A stretch of 5,739 bases of DNA from Deltaproteobacteria bacterium (GTDB lineage Bacteria; Desulfobacterota; DSM-4660; Desulfatiglandales; HGW-15). Of the stretch, positions 1 through 5,739 are shown one piece after another. Location: positions 1 through 5,739 of the forward strand of contig JAFGPH010000642.1 in the NCBI GenBank assembly GCA_016926135.1, in the 5' to 3' direction. Under the pieces are notes generated by a model, which was not told the DNA's origin, searched no databases, and saw only the letters and a list, made by a program, of their open reading frames with translations. Made by a program: the position numbers and the translations under genes. How positions within the stretch are numbered: the stretch's first letter is position 1; each line of letters opens with the position of its first letter.

Positions 1-1475
1 ACCGCTCCTCCAAGGCCCACCAGAAGCGGTAAAATGCCCGGAGCCCCCCCCTGCCCCCCCTCCACGGCCAGAAGCGCCCCCTTTTCCGCCTTCAGTTCAT
101 CCAGGTGTTCCTGGAGATAGAGCGCCTCCTTCCTGAGGGCATCCATCTTCCCTCCGAATTCCCGCAATCTCCGGCACGCGGATTTCATGCGGAGGAGGAG
201 ATCGACATCCTTCACGGTAGGCTCGGTGAGGTTCCCCAGCACTCCCTCCGCGAGTCTCCTACCGGAAAGGGCCTGGTGGAGGGACTCCCTTTTTCCGGCC
301 AACACCTCCTCCGCCTTCCAGATGCCTTCGCGGTGATGCCTGGCCTCCTCGCGGGTGGCAATGGAGAGATCAAACCCCTGTATTCTTTCCTCGTCCCAGA
401 GGGGACCCAGACGACGGAGCCCTTCCTTCAGCCTCTCCTCTCCCCGTGCCCGTTCGTACCCGAGCGCAGCGAGCTCCTGGTCCACGGCCTCGAAACGGCC
501 CTGATCCCTTCGAAGGCCCCTGATGGGAGAGGCATGCTCCAGTATGGACGGCACGTTCTTCAGGAGGGAGAGTTCCGACTCAAGCCGGCCGAGGGTCACC
601 TCCTTTTCGTCCAGCTCGTTTCGGGCGTCCGCCAAACGGGCCTTCAAACCATCCAGGCGACTCGGACCGTCCGGGGGAAAATGGTCGACCTCTTCCAGTT
701 CCTTCAGCCTCTCTCCTGCCGCGCAAAAGTCGATCCACTCAGGCCAGATCCGGACCCACTGTTCCGTTTCCTTCAGCGTTGCCAAAAGCCCGACCCTTCT
801 CCCCTCCAGGCCCTTTACCTGCCCTGAGAGACGAACCGCCCCGGACCGCAGTTGATCGTACTCCGCCACGGAACCATGGAGGGTGCTCTTTTCCCTGGCA
901 ATGACGGTCAGCCGGGTGAGAATGGAATGGATCTGCGTCTTGGGGCCGCGCGGCCTGAACAACTCCCCTTCTTTTTTGTCCAGGCCGGCCCTGAGCTTCG
1001 AAAGCGCACCGGGGTCCACTCCGGCCCCGGCACTGAAAAGGGCCTCCCCCACGGCCTCGGCGTTGAGGGTTTCCATGCCCTGGAGTTCCTCGAGGCGAAA
1101 GGCGAAGACGTTCCTGAAGAGGGTCTTGTTCCCCGGACCCAGGAGGCTATCCAGTGACGCCCTGCCCGACTGGGGACCGTGAACCTCCGCCTTCCCCCCT
1201 TTGGTACCCGCATAACGGGTGAGGGTGTAAACCTGACCATCCTCCAGGACCAGGCTGATGCTCCCTCCGTGCCGGCCTCCTGCCAGGGGAGGATAGGGGT
1301 TCTCCGCGCTCCGGCCGTCGGGGAAGCCATAGAGAACCGCCCTGATGAAGGAAAGAAGCGTGCTCTTGCCGGATTCGTTGGGTCCCAGAAACAGGGTGAG
1401 GCGGGGAGACAGGTCTCGGATCCTGAGGTCATGGTACAGGCCGAATCCCTGAAGGTGAAGGCCGCTGAACCTCAT
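1..1475 (-). CDS. YhaN/SbcC-like coiled-coil P-loop ATPase (N-terminal ~491 residues; 3' end outside the window)
   Basis: Likely the ATPase subunit of a Rad50/SbcC-type complex that works with the phosphoesterase encoded just upstream in DNA double-strand-end processing; cytoplasmic. The frame is open from ATG at 1475 to the window edge. Residues 1-40 hold the family's N-terminal strand and a Walker A motif, GPNESGKST (31-39). A FAFRLEELQ stretch near 124-132 matches the FxFxLxEL region seen in YhaN/AAA_27 proteins. From about 155 to 470 the chain is charged, Glu/Lys/Arg/Leu-rich and coiled-coil-like. At 479-491 a Pro/Gly/Leu-rich hydrophobic stretch (ILPLLVGLGGA) begins; it may be the start of the mid-protein membrane segment that some YhaN-type proteins carry. 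YhaN-type proteins are close to 1000 residues long, so about half is visible; Walker B, signature motif and second coil arm lie outside. The start overlaps the upstream stop (ATGA) and has a strong Shine-Dalgarno, indicating translational coupling. Classical SbcC is the alternative; YhaN-type is preferred because of the partner's type. Confidence 0.88.
   Translation of the reverse strand, partial: MRFSGLHLQGFGLYHDLRIRDLSPRLTLFLGPNESGKSTLLSFIRAVLYGFPDGRSAENPYPPLAGGRHGGSISLVLEDGQVYTLTRYAGTKGGKAEVHGPQSGRASLDSLLGPGNKTLFRNVFAFRLEELQGMETLNAEAVGEALFSAGAGVDPGALSKLRAGLDKKEGELFRPRGPKTQIHSILTRLTVIAREKSTLHGSVAEYDQLRSGAVRLSGQVKGLEGRRVGLLATLKETEQWVRIWPEWIDFCAAGERLKELEEVDHFPPDGPSRLDGLKARLADARNELDEKEVTLGRLESELSLLKNVPSILEHASPIRGLRRDQGRFEAVDQELAALGYERARGEERLKEGLRRLGPLWDEERIQGFDLSIATREEARHHREGIWKAEEVLAGKRESLHQALSGRRLAEGVLGNLTEPTVKDVDLLLRMKSACRRLREFGGKMDALRKEALYLQEHLDELKAEKGALLAVEGGQGGAPGILPLLVGLGGA
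44..60. repeat. Paired homopolymer tracts (C8-TG-C7)
   Basis: C at 44-51 and 54-60, interrupted by TG; on the coding (minus) strand these are G7 and G8. They encode a Gly-rich hinge (EGGQGGAPG) just before a hydrophobic stretch of the ATPase. The frame stays open through both. Confidence 0.6.
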
Positions 1476-2734
1476 TCGTCCCCTCCTCCTGCGAGATGGT
1501 CCACGCAGATGCCTTCCGCCTTCATAAGGAGTGCCTTCAACCCCTCTGCGTCCGGCCGGACCAGAAATCTGCGCGCCCTTGGATCCTCGAAGAGGGAATT
1601 CAGATCCTCGTCCAGCAGGCCTGCCAGATCCTCTTCCCCCAGGTGCTCTCGGGAGACCCTGAGCAACTCACCCACGAAGTCATTCGCCTCCATCAGGACT
1701 TTCACGTCCCGTTCGGGGGTGACCCCGATCCGAACCTGCTCAACCCACACAACAGGGGAACCGGAGAGGCCCTTTTCCCGAAGGATTTTCAAGAGGTCCG
1801 AGACCTGACCCTGGTTCTGGAGAGACCCGTACAGAGGACCGCTGCCGGTCAGGTGGATGCGGGCCATGACGGGTCTTCCTGAAGCCTCCCCGGCCAGGTC
1901 CCGGCAGGTCCCCTCCAGGGTGTCCAGAAGATCCTGTTCCGTTCGGAGATCGCGGATGGAGACCTCTCGAAAGGCCCAGCCAACCGCTTCCGTCCCGTGA
2001 AACTCAAGGTCCACGTGCCTGTCCTCGCTCACCCGCACGAGGTAACACCCCCTCCTGCCCGCCTCCCGGACACTCCTTCCCTGCGTATTGCCCGGATACA
2101 CGACCGTGGGCGGGCCTTCGGCAAGGATACGGGCTCGATGCACGTGGCCCAGCGCCCAGTAGTCCATCCCCGCCCTGCGCAGATCATCAAGGGAACAGGG
2201 GGCGTAAGCTTCATGGCCCGTGTCCTGCCCCACATTCGCATGGAGAAGTCCGATATGAAAGGTCGCGTCCTTTCGCCCAAAGAGGAGGGAGAGGTTGCGC
2301 CTTTCCTCCCGCTTGGCATAGCTGATCCCCTGCACCCTCGCCAGCAGGGCGTCCCCTTTCCTGGCCCCTGCCGTTTCCACCTGATCCCCGAAAATGTGAA
2401 CCGAAGGGGGCCATTCGAGGGACGAAGACCACCCTTCCAGGGGATCGTGGTTCCCATGGACGATGAAGGAACAGATGCCCGCCTCGTGAAGTCGTACCAG
2501 ACCGTCCCTGAACCTCACCTGTGCCCTCAGATTCCTGTCCGCGCCGTCGTAGACATCGCCGGCCACCAGGAGGAAGTCCACCTTCTTCCGGAGGCAGAGC
2601 CGAATCACGCTCTCGAAGGCATGGAGGGTCGCGTCACGCATGACCCCGGCCACTTCCGGGGCGTTCTGGCTAATGGAGGAAAAGGGGCTGTCCAGGTGGA
2701 GATCGGCGGTGTGGACAAAGGAAAACGGGATCAT
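1472..2734 (-). CDS. SbcD/YhaO-like DNA repair metallophosphoesterase (exonuclease subunit)
   Basis: A 420-residue calcineurin-like phosphoesterase of the Mre11/SbcD/YhaO group, expected to be the two-metal (Mn2+) nuclease partner of the ATPase encoded next. All metal-site motifs are visible in order: DLH (Asp11, His13), GDVYD (59-63), GNHD (94-97), the His of LLHANVG (His165), and GHVH (196-199). A YPGNTQGR segment typical of this family follows. The C-terminal ~150 residues are the variable capping/ATPase-binding part. The length fits SbcD (~400) and YhaO (~410). The start was chosen at 2734 because MIPFSFVHTADLHLD begins the fold at once. The open frame continues 64 codons upstream, but that extension runs through repeat DNA and into the 3' end of the CNBD-FHA gene in another frame. 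A weak AGG lies 6 nt before the ATG. Its TGA overlaps the ATPase ATG by 4 bp. No frameshift or missing catalytic residue is seen. Confidence 0.92.
   Translation of the reverse strand: MIPFSFVHTADLHLDSPFSSISQNAPEVAGVMRDATLHAFESVIRLCLRKKVDFLLVAGDVYDGADRNLRAQVRFRDGLVRLHEAGICSFIVHGNHDPLEGWSSSLEWPPSVHIFGDQVETAGARKGDALLARVQGISYAKREERRNLSLLFGRKDATFHIGLLHANVGQDTGHEAYAPCSLDDLRRAGMDYWALGHVHRARILAEGPPTVVYPGNTQGRSVREAGRRGCYLVRVSEDRHVDLEFHGTEAVGWAFREVSIRDLRTEQDLLDTLEGTCRDLAGEASGRPVMARIHLTGSGPLYGSLQNQGQVSDLLKILREKGLSGSPVVWVEQVRIGVTPERDVKVLMEANDFVGELLRVSREHLGEEDLAGLLDEDLNSLFEDPRARRFLVRPDAEGLKALLMKAEGICVDHLAGGGDE
1480..1489 (-). promoter_or_regulatory. Ribosome binding site of the YhaN-like ATPase
   Basis: On the minus strand the purine run GGAGGAGGGG ends 4 nt before the ATG at 1475; the GGAGGA core lies 8 nt away. 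It sits in the last codons of the phosphoesterase gene and fixes the ATPase start at the ATGA overlap. Confidence 0.7.
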
Positions 2735-2755
2735 GCAGTACCTGTAGATAGGAGA

Positions 2756-2840
2756 GGGCGCAAGGCACAAGGCGCACGGCGCGAGGAAACGAATATCTTT
2801 CCTGAGTTCCCTTGAGCCGTGGACCGTGTGCCGTGTGCCG
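2756..2840. repeat. Inverted arrays of a 7-bp repeat forming an imperfect 31-bp hairpin
   Basis: The left arm (2756-2786) reads as heptamers on the plus strand: GGCGCAA, GGCACAA, GGCGCAC, GGCGCGA, then GG. The right arm (2810-2840) reads CCGTGGA, CCGTGTG, CCGTGTG, CCG from 2817, the complement of the same unit (GGCACAC-like). The arms match as an inverted repeat at 23 of 31 positions, separated by a 23-nt AT-richer spacer (2787-2809). The array ends exactly at the stop codon of the CNBD-FHA gene. In the leftward transcript it could fold into a long imperfect stem, but no U-tract follows, so it is not a classical Rho-independent terminator. The rest of the gap, 2735-2755, holds only the weak ribosome binding site of the phosphoesterase. 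No convincing promoter for that gene was found in the gap. Confidence 0.75.
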
Positions 2841-3611
2841 TCATGATTGCACCACGACCGGCCGGAGAAGGAAGATGAACCGGGAGGTCGCCGGCCCGAC
2901 GACCACCTGGTTGACCTCCTTATCAAGGGGAACGCGGGTCACGCCGCTCCGGCCACCGACTTCCTTTCCGTTGACGATCGTCCCGAAGGCGCTTCCCCTG
3001 TCCACGACCCAGATCAGTCCCCCCTCGTTACTGATGGCCAGATGGTTTCGGGATACCATGTACGGCTTCTCCTCCCGGATAAACAGGTCGTTGTTGTAGA
3101 AGACGTCCGCATCCGGATTCTGTGACTCCCTTCCGATCAGGAAGGGAAATTTGGTGACGCAGAGGCTTCGGTCATCGAGTACCCTTCTCGCCTCTTCGGT
3201 CTGGCCCTCCATAATGACCTCATAGGTCTTTTCAACGGCCTTGGGCTTGTCCCCGGAGAACGACCTCTCCGCGAGCATGTCACTCACCTGCCGAAGCCTC
3301 TCGAAAAGACTCTTCATGATGGGGATGAGCATGGAGGGTTTGGTCTTCAACAGTTCGTTGAAGTGCTCCCTGTCAATGCACCTCACCTTGACTTCGGTGA
3401 GGGCCCGGACCGTGGCTGACCTCGGCCTGTCTTCGATGAGCCCCATTTCCCCGAAGACCTGCCCCGCCCCCAGGGTCGCCACTGTGACCTCCCTGTCTCC
3501 GGATCTCTTGATGACCTCCACCGCGCCGGAGAGGATGATGTAGGCGGAAGTGCCCTTGCTTCCTTCTTCGATCACAACCTCTTGAGGTCGAAACTTGACC
3601 AGCTTCTCCAT
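2841..3611 (-). CDS. Cyclic-nucleotide-binding domain + FHA domain signalling protein
   Basis: A 256-residue soluble protein with two ligand-reading domains and no catalytic or DNA-binding domain. Residues ~5-112 are a CRP-type cyclic-nucleotide-binding domain. Its phosphate-binding cassette is FGEMGLIEDRPRSATVRA (53-70), which keeps the Glu (55) and Arg (64) that contact cAMP/cGMP in the family. The usual N-terminal helix is short or missing. Residues ~113-150 form a charged helical linker. Residues ~155-250 are an FHA domain, a phosphothreonine-peptide reader: IGR (159-161), VSRNHLAI (186-193) and DRGSAFGTIVNG (204-215) are the three signature blocks. The loop between the first two blocks is long (about 25 residues). 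Likely role (inference): an adaptor linking a second messenger to Ser/Thr-kinase signalling. The start is set by a strong GGAGGAA 6 nt upstream. It is transcribed toward the nuclease genes but separated from them by the heptamer repeat, so common function with them is unproven. Confidence 0.93.
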   Translation of the reverse strand: MEKLVKFRPQEVVIEEGSKGTSAYIILSGAVEVIKRSGDREVTVATLGAGQVFGEMGLIEDRPRSATVRALTEVKVRCIDREHFNELLKTKPSMLIPIMKSLFERLRQVSDMLAERSFSGDKPKAVEKTYEVIMEGQTEEARRVLDDRSLCVTKFPFLIGRESQNPDADVFYNNDLFIREEKPYMVSRNHLAISNEGGLIWVVDRGSAFGTIVNGKEVGGRSGVTRVPLDKEVNQVVVGPATSRFIFLLRPVVVQS

Positions 3612-3617
3612 CCGGCG

Positions 3618-3624
3618 TTCCTCC
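3618..3624 (-). promoter_or_regulatory. Strong ribosome binding site of the CNBD-FHA gene
   Basis: On the minus strand GGAGGAA lies 6 nt before the ATG at 3611. This is near-ideal complementarity and spacing and decides the start. Confidence 0.75.
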
Positions 3625-3642
3625 AGGACCAGTTGTTCCAGC

Positions 3643-3671
3643 AGGATACCACACCTCAGGCCCCTTTTTAA
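3643..3671 (-). promoter_or_regulatory. Candidate leftward sigma70-type promoter for the CNBD-FHA gene
   Basis: On the minus strand TTAAAA (3671-3666, 4/6 to the -35 consensus) is followed after 17 nt by TATCCT (3648-3643, 4/6 to the -10 consensus), with TG one base before the -10 as in extended -10 promoters. Transcription would begin near 3636, giving a leader of about 25 nt that contains the ribosome binding site. The individual boxes are weak; the spacing, the extended -10 and the position support the call. Confidence 0.4.
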
Positions 3672-3675
3672 GGGG
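3661..3675. promoter_or_regulatory. Perfect short palindrome over the leftward -35 box (possible operator)
   Basis: CCCCTT-TTT-AAGGGG: two 6-bp arms around a 3-bp centre, covering the proposed leftward -35 hexamer. A repressor bound here would block the CNBD-FHA promoter. It could also be a chance AT/GC block. It is not at the end of any gene, so a terminator role is unlikely. Confidence 0.35.
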
Positions 3676-3686
3676 ATTTTCTGGAT

Positions 3687-3706
3687 GCCTTGATGGCTGA
3701 TCAGGC
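3687..3706. promoter_or_regulatory. Weak dyad midway between the divergent promoters
   Basis: GCCTTGAT, five bases, then ATCAGGC: near-symmetric arms with a one-base length difference. The half-site TTGAT resembles that of the CRP/FNR family, but the central spacing is 5, not 4, and the second half is ATCAG instead of ATCAA. Its centre is about 58-61 bp upstream of both predicted transcription starts, a usual position for an activator. Low confidence. Confidence 0.2.
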
Positions 3707-3719
3707 CCGGCTCATCCGC

Positions 3720-3748
3720 TTGACGCAGCCGCTCCGCTCGCCTATAGT
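3720..3748 (+). promoter_or_regulatory. Rightward sigma70-type promoter for the sensor-permease operon
   Basis: TTGACG (3720-3725, 5/6 to consensus) and TATAGT (3743-3748, 5/6) are separated by exactly 17 nt. The start point would be near 3755, leaving a leader of about 54 nt before the ATG at 3809. This is the best promoter in the window. Confidence 0.65.
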
Positions 3749-3808
3749 AAAGATTCGGAAAACGGGAGTACTGCTTTGACCGACTAACCCCTTCACGGCC
3801 ACCAGAGC

Positions 3809-5125
3809 ATGCTTGAGGAAATCACCAAAAACCCCGACCTGGCAAAGTACATGACCACCTTCAGAGAGGGGGACATCCTCTTCCTGGAGGGAGACGTCTC
3901 CCAGGATCTCTACATCCTGGTATCGGGAAGGATCGACGTCCTGAAGGGGAACAAGAAAATCGCAGAAATCAGGGAGCGGGGTTCACTGTTCGGAGAGATG
4001 TCCTTTCTTCTCGGCGGGAACAGGACCGCCTCGGCCAAGGCATGCGAACCGGTGAAGGTCCTCTGCATCCCCAAGGAAAAGGTCTCGGACTTCCTCAACG
4101 AATTCCCTTCCGTGGCCGAGAAGATCACCAAACTCCTGGCCCATCGGCTCGATGAGACGAGCCAGGCCCTTTACGGGCTGAGGGAATTTTGTGACCAGCT
4201 GCCCGATGCGGTCGTTCTCACGGACAAGGAGGGGAAGATCCTCACCTGGAACAGCGCGGCCGAGAGGCTCTACGGCAGGGAATGGCACGAGATGTACGAC
4301 CGGTCCATGGAGGATATCTACGACGAGCCACAGGCTTACAAAAGCTACATCGAGGAGGTTCAGTCACGCTACTCCGTGCGGGAGAAGATCCTCAAGATCC
4401 GGCATCCGGAAAAGGGGATCAGGCACATATCCACAAGCACGACCATACTCTATGACGGACACCACAATTTCCAGGGCGTTCTCTCCCTGGGCCGGGACGT
4501 GACCGCCGTGCAAAACCTGGAACGCCGCTACCGGCGGGTGCGCAATTGGCTCATCCCCACGCTGGCCCTGCTCGGCCTGCTGGGAGCGGCGTCGTTCTTT
4601 GCCTATCCTTACTTCTCGAGGGGTGTCCAGACGGTCGATGTGAAGAAGCAGGAACTCAAGAATCAACTCGCCAGGGACTACCTCCTCCTCAAGTCCCTCC
4701 TGAAAGAGTCCTTCCTGAGCGGCGACAGGTCCAGGACGAATCCGTCCCTGAACGAGTTCTTCAAGGTTCAAGACTCCAAGGAGACCCCTTACAAGGGCAT
4801 TCTGCTCCTCGACAGGGACAAGAGGGTTTTCGACGCCTTTTACCCCGGGAATCGCCAGTTCGCCAAGGACCTTCTGGGCAGCAGTTATGCCGGTATCGAG
4901 TTCCATGGCAGTGACAAATCTCCTCACAGGGTGCTTACCCTTTATCGTGCCGATAAGAAGCATCCCATGGGCCACAGGGGCGTCGAAGTGGCCTTTGAGA
5001 TGGTCAGGGACAGGCGGTTTCTCGGCTGGATCGTCTTTCAGATGGACATGGAGGCGTTGAAGAGGGACTTCGGGGCCGGGGAGGAGGACTTGAGAGGGTT
5101 TCAGTTCCGGAAGCAGCAGCCATGA
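3809..5125 (+). CDS. Membrane-anchored CNBD-PAS sensor with C-terminal extracytoplasmic domain
   Basis: A 438-residue protein with one membrane span and no recognised output domain. Residues ~13-118 are a cyclic-nucleotide-binding domain: REGDILFLEGD (19-29), LYILVSGRIDV (34-44), and cassette FGEMSFLLGGNRTASAKA (61-78) with the binding Glu63 and Arg72. Residues ~125-235 are a PAS domain (LPDAVVLTDKEGKILTWN, 131-148; GVLSLGRDVTAV, 223-234), ligand unknown. An Arg-rich segment (LERRYRRVRNW) precedes a single transmembrane helix at ~248-269, so by the positive-inside rule the N-terminal sensors are cytoplasmic. Residues 270-438 would then be periplasmic: a long helix followed by a Cache/PAS-like GILLLDRDKRVFDAFYPG (330-347). 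No histidine kinase, GGDEF, EAL, methyl-accepting or HTH domain is present. The ribosome binding site is weak (AGAG). An in-frame TAA at 3785 limits the start to this ATG or a later one (Met45 codon region lacks a better site). It overlaps the permease gene by ATGA, implying coupled translation and a shared role. Confidence 0.85.
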   Translation: MLEEITKNPDLAKYMTTFREGDILFLEGDVSQDLYILVSGRIDVLKGNKKIAEIRERGSLFGEMSFLLGGNRTASAKACEPVKVLCIPKEKVSDFLNEFPSVAEKITKLLAHRLDETSQALYGLREFCDQLPDAVVLTDKEGKILTWNSAAERLYGREWHEMYDRSMEDIYDEPQAYKSYIEEVQSRYSVREKILKIRHPEKGIRHISTSTTILYDGHHNFQGVLSLGRDVTAVQNLERRYRRVRNWLIPTLALLGLLGAASFFAYPYFSRGVQTVDVKKQELKNQLARDYLLLKSLLKESFLSGDRSRTNPSLNEFFKVQDSKETPYKGILLLDRDKRVFDAFYPGNRQFAKDLLGSSYAGIEFHGSDKSPHRVLTLYRADKKHPMGHRGVEVAFEMVRDRRFLGWIVFQMDMEALKRDFGAGEEDLRGFQFRKQQP

Positions 5126-5739
5126 TGACTACCGCGCGCGCCCATTCGCGATATTTTGAGGTGTCGGAGTCCGGGGAGGGAGGCATGGCCCTTCACCTCT
5201 GGGGCAGGCTGGACGCCGCCAGATCTTCCCTCCTGATCCGGGAACTGGACGACCTCTTCCGCGAGGCCCCCCCCCAGGACCTGACGGTTGACCTTTCCAG
5301 GGTGACCTATCTGGACGACTTCGGGGTGCTCGTTCTTGTGGAGATCAAGACCATGATGGCCAGGGCAGGGGGAGGCTTCCGGATTGAGAATGCGGACGAG
5401 GAAATCCAGCAGATCCTGAAGATCTTTCGGTTCGAATCCCTGGGTGAACCCACCGCCCTCAGGAGGAAGCGTCAGCCCGGGATGATGGTGCGCCTGGGAG
5501 ATGCGGGCATCCGTCACGCACAGGACATGAGATACCTCATCTCCTTCGTCGGTTCCGTGTTTCTCGCATTGCTCCACGTGTGTCTTCATCCCAGGTCCCT
5601 TCGGACCGGAGAGACCATCAACGCCATGCAGAGGACAGGGGTGGACGCACTGCCGATCGTATCCCTGATCAGCTTCCTCCTGGGCCTGATCATGGCCTTC
5701 ATGTCCGCAGTCCAGCTCAAGCAGTTCGGCGCCAACATC
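5122..5739 (+). CDS. mlaE: STAS-MlaE-type ABC transporter permease (N-terminal 206 residues; 3' end outside the window)
   Basis: Inner-membrane permease of the Mla/MCE lipid (phospholipid) transport ABC systems, with an N-terminal STAS domain fused on, as though MlaB and MlaE were one chain. STAS: residues ~11-108, with the core TVDLSRVTYLDDFGVLVLVE (55-74). At the site where SpoIIAA has a phosphorylatable Ser, and MlaB a conserved Thr, this protein has Asp66. A linker follows (~109-127), then the permease domain: an amphipathic/hydrophobic helix ~137-155, and TGVDALPIVSLISFLLGLIM (172-191) leading to AVQLKQFGANI at the edge, a highly typical MlaE segment. The remaining helices lie outside. 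ATG 5122 overlaps the sensor stop (ATGA); the next ATG at 5125 is equally possible and costs one residue. Known Mla loci carry an MlaF ATPase and an MlaD MCE protein nearby, expected to the right. A run of nine C at 5267-5275 lies in the STAS coding region; the frame is intact. Confidence 0.93.
   Translation, partial: MMTTARAHSRYFEVSESGEGGMALHLWGRLDAARSSLLIRELDDLFREAPPQDLTVDLSRVTYLDDFGVLVLVEIKTMMARAGGGFRIENADEEIQQILKIFRFESLGEPTALRRKRQPGMMVRLGDAGIRHAQDMRYLISFVGSVFLALLHVCLHPRSLRTGETINAMQRTGVDALPIVSLISFLLGLIMAFMSAVQLKQFGANI
5267..5275 (+). repeat. Nine-C homopolymer within the STAS coding region
   Basis: An uninterrupted C9 tract encodes Ala-Pro-Pro in the loop before the central STAS strand. 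A one-base slip would truncate the permease. The frame as given is open. Confidence 0.6.

Follow-up and report, generated by a model that had tools for sequence, protein, structure and literature searches.

The 5,739-nucleotide stretch analysed here (the window: positions 1 to 5,739, forward strand, of contig JAFGPH010000642.1 in assembly GCA_016926135.1, a Deltaproteobacteria genome placed in Desulfobacterota) carries a gene for a membrane protein with a cyclic nucleotide-binding domain (CNBD), a PAS domain, one transmembrane helix and a C-terminal domain predicted to have the Cache/PDC sensor fold, followed by the start of a gene for a STAS-MlaE permease. In related genomes this sensor recurs in the operon of an MCE lipid transporter resembling Mpc (Mla-Pqi chimera), with either of two gene orders and in members of two phyla. 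A functional tie between sensor and transporter is likely, because linkage persists across both gene orders and both phyla and no sensor genome in the samples lacks the permease family. On balance, with modest confidence, we favour direct control of the Mpc-type transporter by the protein as a dedicated accessory sensor-regulator. A three-sensor protein recurring in a transporter operon suggests that signals may directly control lipid traffic between membranes; this addition to the known Mpc gene set supplies named domains, candidate ligands and a direct assay for transporter regulation. If direct control is true, it is a case of signal-controlled intermembrane lipid traffic in relatives of sulfate reducers and in anammox bacteria.

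All Pfam assignments in the sensor and the permease lie above curated cut-offs, and they bear out the CNBD and PAS domain that an initial annotation, made from the DNA sequence without database searches, had recognised. The single membrane helix of that annotation is also upheld: the protein has one hydrophobic stretch, with a best 19-residue window at 247-265 (mean hydropathy 1.86; next best elsewhere 0.75). The segment ERRYRRVRNW lies directly N-terminal of this helix, which by the positive-inside rule puts the N-terminus inside; the predicted topology is a cytoplasmic N-terminus and a periplasmic Cache C-terminus. Foldseek searches with the whole model matched mainly CNBD and PAS proteins and were uninformative on the C-terminal domain, which was therefore predicted separately. 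Alone it yields a model (pLDDT 88.7) with a long N-terminal helix followed by a PAS-like antiparallel sheet, resembling solved Cache sensors (Foldseek, VIA) and predicted to be a Cache/PDC sensor fold. The periplasmic location first proposed for this domain is thus retained as a prediction, but the sensory domains number three rather than two, since the C-terminal domain itself models as a Cache domain. As had been noted initially, the protein has no output domain of kinase, cyclase or chemoreceptor type in a Pfam scan. Neither is a cytoplasmic output domain found in the Pfam annotation of the best 120 of 957 homologues (E <= 1e-3, out of 7997 scored), all of which have a CNBD and a PAS domain and most of which are 430-480 residues long. 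The closest named relative, at 68% identity, is a Deltaproteobacteria record (L001). Separately, a 299-codon open reading frame on the minus strand just upstream of STAS-MlaE in another locus (L083, 7569-8465) gave a weak Cache-profile match (score 16) and no Pfam match.

The cassette region of the CNBD is strongly conserved: G62, E63 and T73 are invariant in all 56 rows of the alignment and R72 is Arg in 54 rows and Lys in two, and the region aligns with the cyclic nucleotide monophosphate (cNMP) sites of solved cGMP kinases. We take residues 58-75 to be the phosphate-binding cassette, in which the conserved Gly-Glu and Arg presumably coordinate ribose and phosphate. The sensor, in which these residues are present and PF00027 is matched above its cut-off, may bind a cyclic nucleotide such as cAMP or cGMP. 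Class III cyclase (PF00211) matches occur in all 14 sensor genomes tested, of the 28 described below, at 1 to 40 each, and in 2 of 14 sensorless genomes, this comparison consisting of 14 named genomes alone; the cyclases speak only to the feasibility of cyclic-nucleotide sensing.

A scan of genome contigs with two peptide patterns gave 39 stretches, 29 of which encode a sensor relative. In all 29 of these pattern-selected loci the sensor gene adjoins, on the same strand, genes of an operon for STAS-MlaE, MlaF, MlaD and ABC_trans_aux (a PqiC-type lipoprotein), which supplies the conserved neighbourhoods that the initial annotation had proposed to count. All four partner genes were seen in 24 loci and STAS-MlaE in 27 (profile match); in L002, L007, L008, L022 and L025 the operon is cut by contig ends. 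The sensor gene comes first in 21 loci and last in eight, the latter being five anammox records (Scalindua, Brocadiaceae), one titled Alphaproteobacteria and two deltaproteobacterial (one Desulfurivibrionaceae), and linked loci as a whole span Desulfobacterota and anammox bacteria. In the sensor tree and the permease tree alike, the sensor-last rows group as a single clade (100/100), so that linkage has been kept across lineages of differing gene order, and both genes follow species descent. The motifs STSTT-LYD (PAS) and HPMG (Cache), conserved in linked sensors, were rejected as interface evidence because the loci had been picked by these very patterns.

The permease that had been proposed next to the sensor is confirmed by Pfam for its STAS domain (residues 22-106) and the first ~40 positions of MlaE, but it is truncated at the window end, and the complete fusion is seen in relatives only (L005). 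The partners MlaF, a long single-MCE MlaD and the PqiC-type lipoprotein, identified by Pfam in L005, are seen in related loci only; in the window itself they would lie past its end. Neither a separate MlaB nor the periplasmic shuttle MlaC is among the L005 genes (Pfam), the other loci not having been searched for them. The four Mpc-type proteins putatively form a stable envelope-spanning complex in these bacteria. In one Scalindua operon (L019, 7605-8081) an rve_3 integrase-core reading frame stands between MlaF and MlaD, so that the operon may be interrupted at that place.

Translational coupling had been suggested from the ATGA shared by the sensor stop and the permease start. The overlap is there at 5122 but most relatives lack it: an ATG stands exactly at -4 relative to the sensor stop in 3 of 22 sensor-first loci (the window counted). 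Each of the 22 does have an in-frame start codon no more than 61 bases from the sensor stop, and in all eight sensor-last loci the sensor starts within 20 bases of the lipoprotein stop. The promoter initially described as good, at 3720-3748 (10/12 matches), was rejected as no better than shuffled sequence (1 found against 0.7 expected).

Because the 29 loci had been picked by pattern, the sensor was also searched for by profile in an even draw of genomes, with at most 5 to 28 candidates scored per genome; some genomes of the 29 loci (e.g. G001, G005, G007, G732) are included in these samples. In the phylum of G001 a full-length sensor was found in 12 of 297 genomes, and the CNBD part alone in 23 others; judged by their flanks, four of the 12 sensors are linked to the operon and eight are unlinked. 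The order of G001 yielded sensors in 10 of 194 genomes (eight linked, two unlinked; the match in G471 is partial, at a contig edge), Planctomycetota one in 199 genomes, an anammox genome, and the anammox order seven in 62, all linked. For six of these seven the permease is encoded on the sensor's contig and strand, no more than a few kilobases away; in G732, the genome of L022, MlaF, MlaD and the lipoprotein stand beside the sensor, and the permease gene lies close to the end of a different contig. The union of the samples is 28 sensor genomes, 18 linked and 10 unlinked, with G001 common to the phylum and order samples. Homologues found mostly away from mla genes were to count against the proposed regulatory role, and on this point the outcome is mixed: linkage prevails overall, absence of linkage in the phylum sample.

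The sensor family is thus wider than its operon-linked group. The eight phylum-sample sensors without linkage share 36-46% identity with that of the window and fall into two groups in the sensor tree; neighbours of the unlinked sensors examined include PolX-like, GNAT, DegT with an oxidoreductase, HrcA, helicase and AMP-binding (acyl-CoA-ligase-like) genes. One unlinked sensor, in G411, was considered as a broken copy and this was rejected, its stop being an ordinary terminal stop. Three related unlinked sensors (L065, L066, L068) lie near two tandem ABC ATPase genes, presumably LIV-type given the gene order, and a gene of ~550 codons, in which an AMP-binding (acyl-CoA ligase-like) domain was shown in L066 only.

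Linked or not, the sensor keeps company with the permease, whose family is present in 28 of 28 sensor genomes. A strong STAS-MlaE permease (at least 407 bits; next lower 381) occurs in 50 of the 297 phylum genomes, including all 12 with a sensor (hypergeometric 1.5e-10, kinship ignored). All 10 sensor genomes of the order sample are among its 62 permease genomes of 194 (E <= 1e-100), and the eight linked ones hold exactly the eight best-scoring permeases of the 62, as scored by a profile built from linked loci. In the anammox order a permease of at least 619 bits is found in 8 of 62 genomes, seven of them with the sensor; in the eighth (G729) the 5181-base contig ends before the expected sensor place. 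Among the eight phylum genomes with unlinked sensors the whole operon is found elsewhere in seven; in G132 (L086) STAS-MlaE was the one gene identified confidently in the stretch fetched. Each of 14 sensor genomes tested has 1 to 4 MlaE-family matches, so that most of these genomes encode several permeases, one of which adjoins the sensor.

Several observations weigh against direct control. No full-length sensor was found in 38 of the 50 strong-permease phylum genomes (drafts, with at most 5 candidates scored per genome), although absence from draft genomes is weak evidence, and 12 of 12 fetched from those 38 contain the STAS-MlaE, MlaF, MlaD and lipoprotein operon without a sensor. The permease of one sensorless genome (L070) is placed among sensor-first permeases in the tree, and 10 of 28 sensors are next to other genes. 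The Cache domain is only 6-18% identical to the solved sensors that it matches structurally, and it has no Pfam profile match at E 0.01. No sensor-permease fusion was seen in 10 loci with long-open-frame MlaE matches (nine with 266-494-bit profile matches and one more), which were judged by eye with no family search on the extra parts; the upstream extensions look like non-coding read-through or are short. Contact of the sensor with the transporter, ligand binding and the direction of control are all inferred. Many transporters of this type lack the sensor, which makes it an accessory and not a required subunit: it is a partner that recurs yet seems dispensable, and it goes with a single kind of permease. 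The regulatory subunit proposed initially is therefore supported in part, by linkage and co-occurrence, but with an accessory standing and as part of a wider family.

Under direct control, the CNBD would read a cyclic nucleotide and the PAS domain a second cytoplasmic cue, while the Cache domain would read a small ligand in the periplasm. The integrated state could then pass to the transporter via the sensor's own membrane helix, most likely to the STAS domain of the permease or to the step at which the MlaF ATPase docks, and so raise or lower transport. Action on STAS-MlaE/MlaF would be the most economical mechanism, because MlaB is needed for MlaF association in Escherichia coli and because Mce1N offers a precedent (see below). 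A more elaborate version, a second-messenger-gated MCE transporter that connects the inner and outer membranes and is switched directly by cyclic nucleotide, PAS cue and periplasmic ligand through an inside-out sensor of inverted layout, with the neighbouring CNBD-FHA protein (Table 1) as a second input, is conceivable, but we hold it only tentatively.

It may instead be that the sensor is self-standing and acts on another cytoplasmic protein, e.g. a transcription or stress regulator, sharing the operon for co-production and perhaps reporting the envelope lipid state. Occurrence of the same full-length protein off the operon in 10 of 28 genomes, beside neighbours that vary, fits such an arrangement, whereas no alternative partner recurs, save for the AMP-binding and tandem ABC genes that lie close to three sensors related to one another, and every sensor genome holds the permease family; we regard it as rather unlikely, though a serious alternative to direct control. 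Tight operon linkage, and a single transmembrane helix joining cytoplasmic to periplasmic domains, would also suit a structural or assembly part without live ligand sensing: MlaD or the lipoprotein would be held in the periplasm by the Cache domain, and MlaF or STAS by the CNBD-PAS part. However, the fetched sensorless operons hold the same four genes, so that the sensor is not needed for assembly everywhere, and 54-56 of 56 rows retain the residues presumed to coordinate cNMP, which leaves a purely structural role improbable. That the genes are chance neighbours, or hitch-hike in a conserved gene string, is very improbable: unlinked copies do exist and the linked Desulfobacterota are partly related, but chance sits poorly with two gene orders, two phyla and 18 linked among 28 profile-found genomes. 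Direct control by an accessory sensor remains the reading we prefer.

Table 1. Features of the window, with the evidence for each.
Feature	Position	Strand	Evidence
Sensor gene, 438 aa, CNBD-PAS-transmembrane helix-Cache (predicted)	3809..5125	+	Open reading frame (ATG start), Pfam, structure model; similar-length homologues with same CNBD and PAS
Cyclic nucleotide-binding domain, residues 17-98	3857..4102	+	PF00027 (cNMP_binding), E 4.3e-19
Presumed phosphate-binding cassette region, residues 58-75	3980..4033	+	56-row alignment; aligned to cNMP sites of solved kinases
PAS domain, residues 125-231	4181..4501	+	PF00989, E 1.6e-11
Single membrane helix, residues 247-265	4547..4603	+	Hydropathy; unbroken helix in model
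Predicted Cache/PDC-fold C-terminal domain, residues 270-438, predicted periplasmic	4616..5122	+	Model pLDDT 88.7; Foldseek, VIA
ATGA overlap, sensor stop / STAS-MlaE start	5122..5125	+	Open reading frame coordinates
STAS-MlaE permease, first 206 codons, cut by window end	5122..5739	+	PF01740, PF13466, PF02405
CNBD-FHA gene, 256 aa, divergent to sensor	2841..3611	-	Pfam; relatives in genome sample

Close relatives of the CNBD-FHA protein (57-58% identity) occur in only 2 of 297 phylum genomes, and both (L074, L076) are divergent to and adjoin a sensorless STAS-MlaE operon, the FHA domain having been tested in L074; two weaker relatives (38-39%) are located elsewhere than the operon. A CNBD-FHA gene directly divergent to the operon was found in none of the 29 sensor loci. 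Another stretch of the window (3-2926, minus strand), also divergent to the sensor, encodes a nuclease-like pair of a metallophosphoesterase and an AAA_27 ATPase, which we take to be SbcD/SbcC-like; homologues of this pair stand divergent beside the sensor in L013.

In open-licence literature, no title or abstract among the matches listed describes MlaE together with a CNBD or PAS protein, and no anammox paper is among those listed for anammox with Mla terms. Two of the papers listed, on a cyanobacterial draft genome (PMC5009524) and on rice (PMC13377552), mention mla, a cyclic nucleotide-binding domain and lipid transport in their full text. The C-terminal domain shares its predicted fold with Cache/PDC sensor kinases and chemoreceptors (WalK, DctB, CitA, LuxQ). 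Proteins of this type have a cytoplasmic output after a second helix; here, in contrast, the cytoplasmic sensory domains come first and the Cache domain lies at the C-terminus.

The closest likeness for the operon is Mpc of Brucella abortus, which comprises a STAS-MlaE fusion, MlaF, a 331-residue single-MCE protein and a PqiC-type lipoprotein, and for which a pull-down is reported under the heading MpcEFDA (PMC12436622). The operon beside the sensor has the same four-gene composition, with a single-MCE protein of 344 residues in L005, and the lipoprotein gene is last of the four in sensor-first loci as in Brucella; the CNBD-PAS-Cache sensor is not named in the passages on Brucella Mpc (PMC12436622). 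The initial annotation had it that standard Mla operons are without such a component, and none is named in the passages on MlaFB and Mpc (PMC7367683, PMC12436622). Mycobacterial Mce1N sets a precedent for regulation of an MCE transporter by way of its permease: this accessory membrane protein, a negative regulator of Mce1, binds the MlaE-type permease and disrupts its assembly with the ATPase (PMC10517005). Mce1N differs in having two transmembrane helices and a cytoplasmic C-terminus, against one helix and a C-terminus predicted outside in the sensor, and the passages describing it name no CNBD, PAS or Cache domain (PMC10517005). In E. coli MlaFEDB, association of MlaF depends on the STAS protein MlaB; the MlaFB study proposes that a small partner regulates transport and describes the control of active MlaB as an open question (PMC7367683). 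The systems are alike in that a STAS domain is linked to MlaF association, and differ in that here STAS domain and permease form one fused protein and the system includes an additional membrane protein with several sensory domains.
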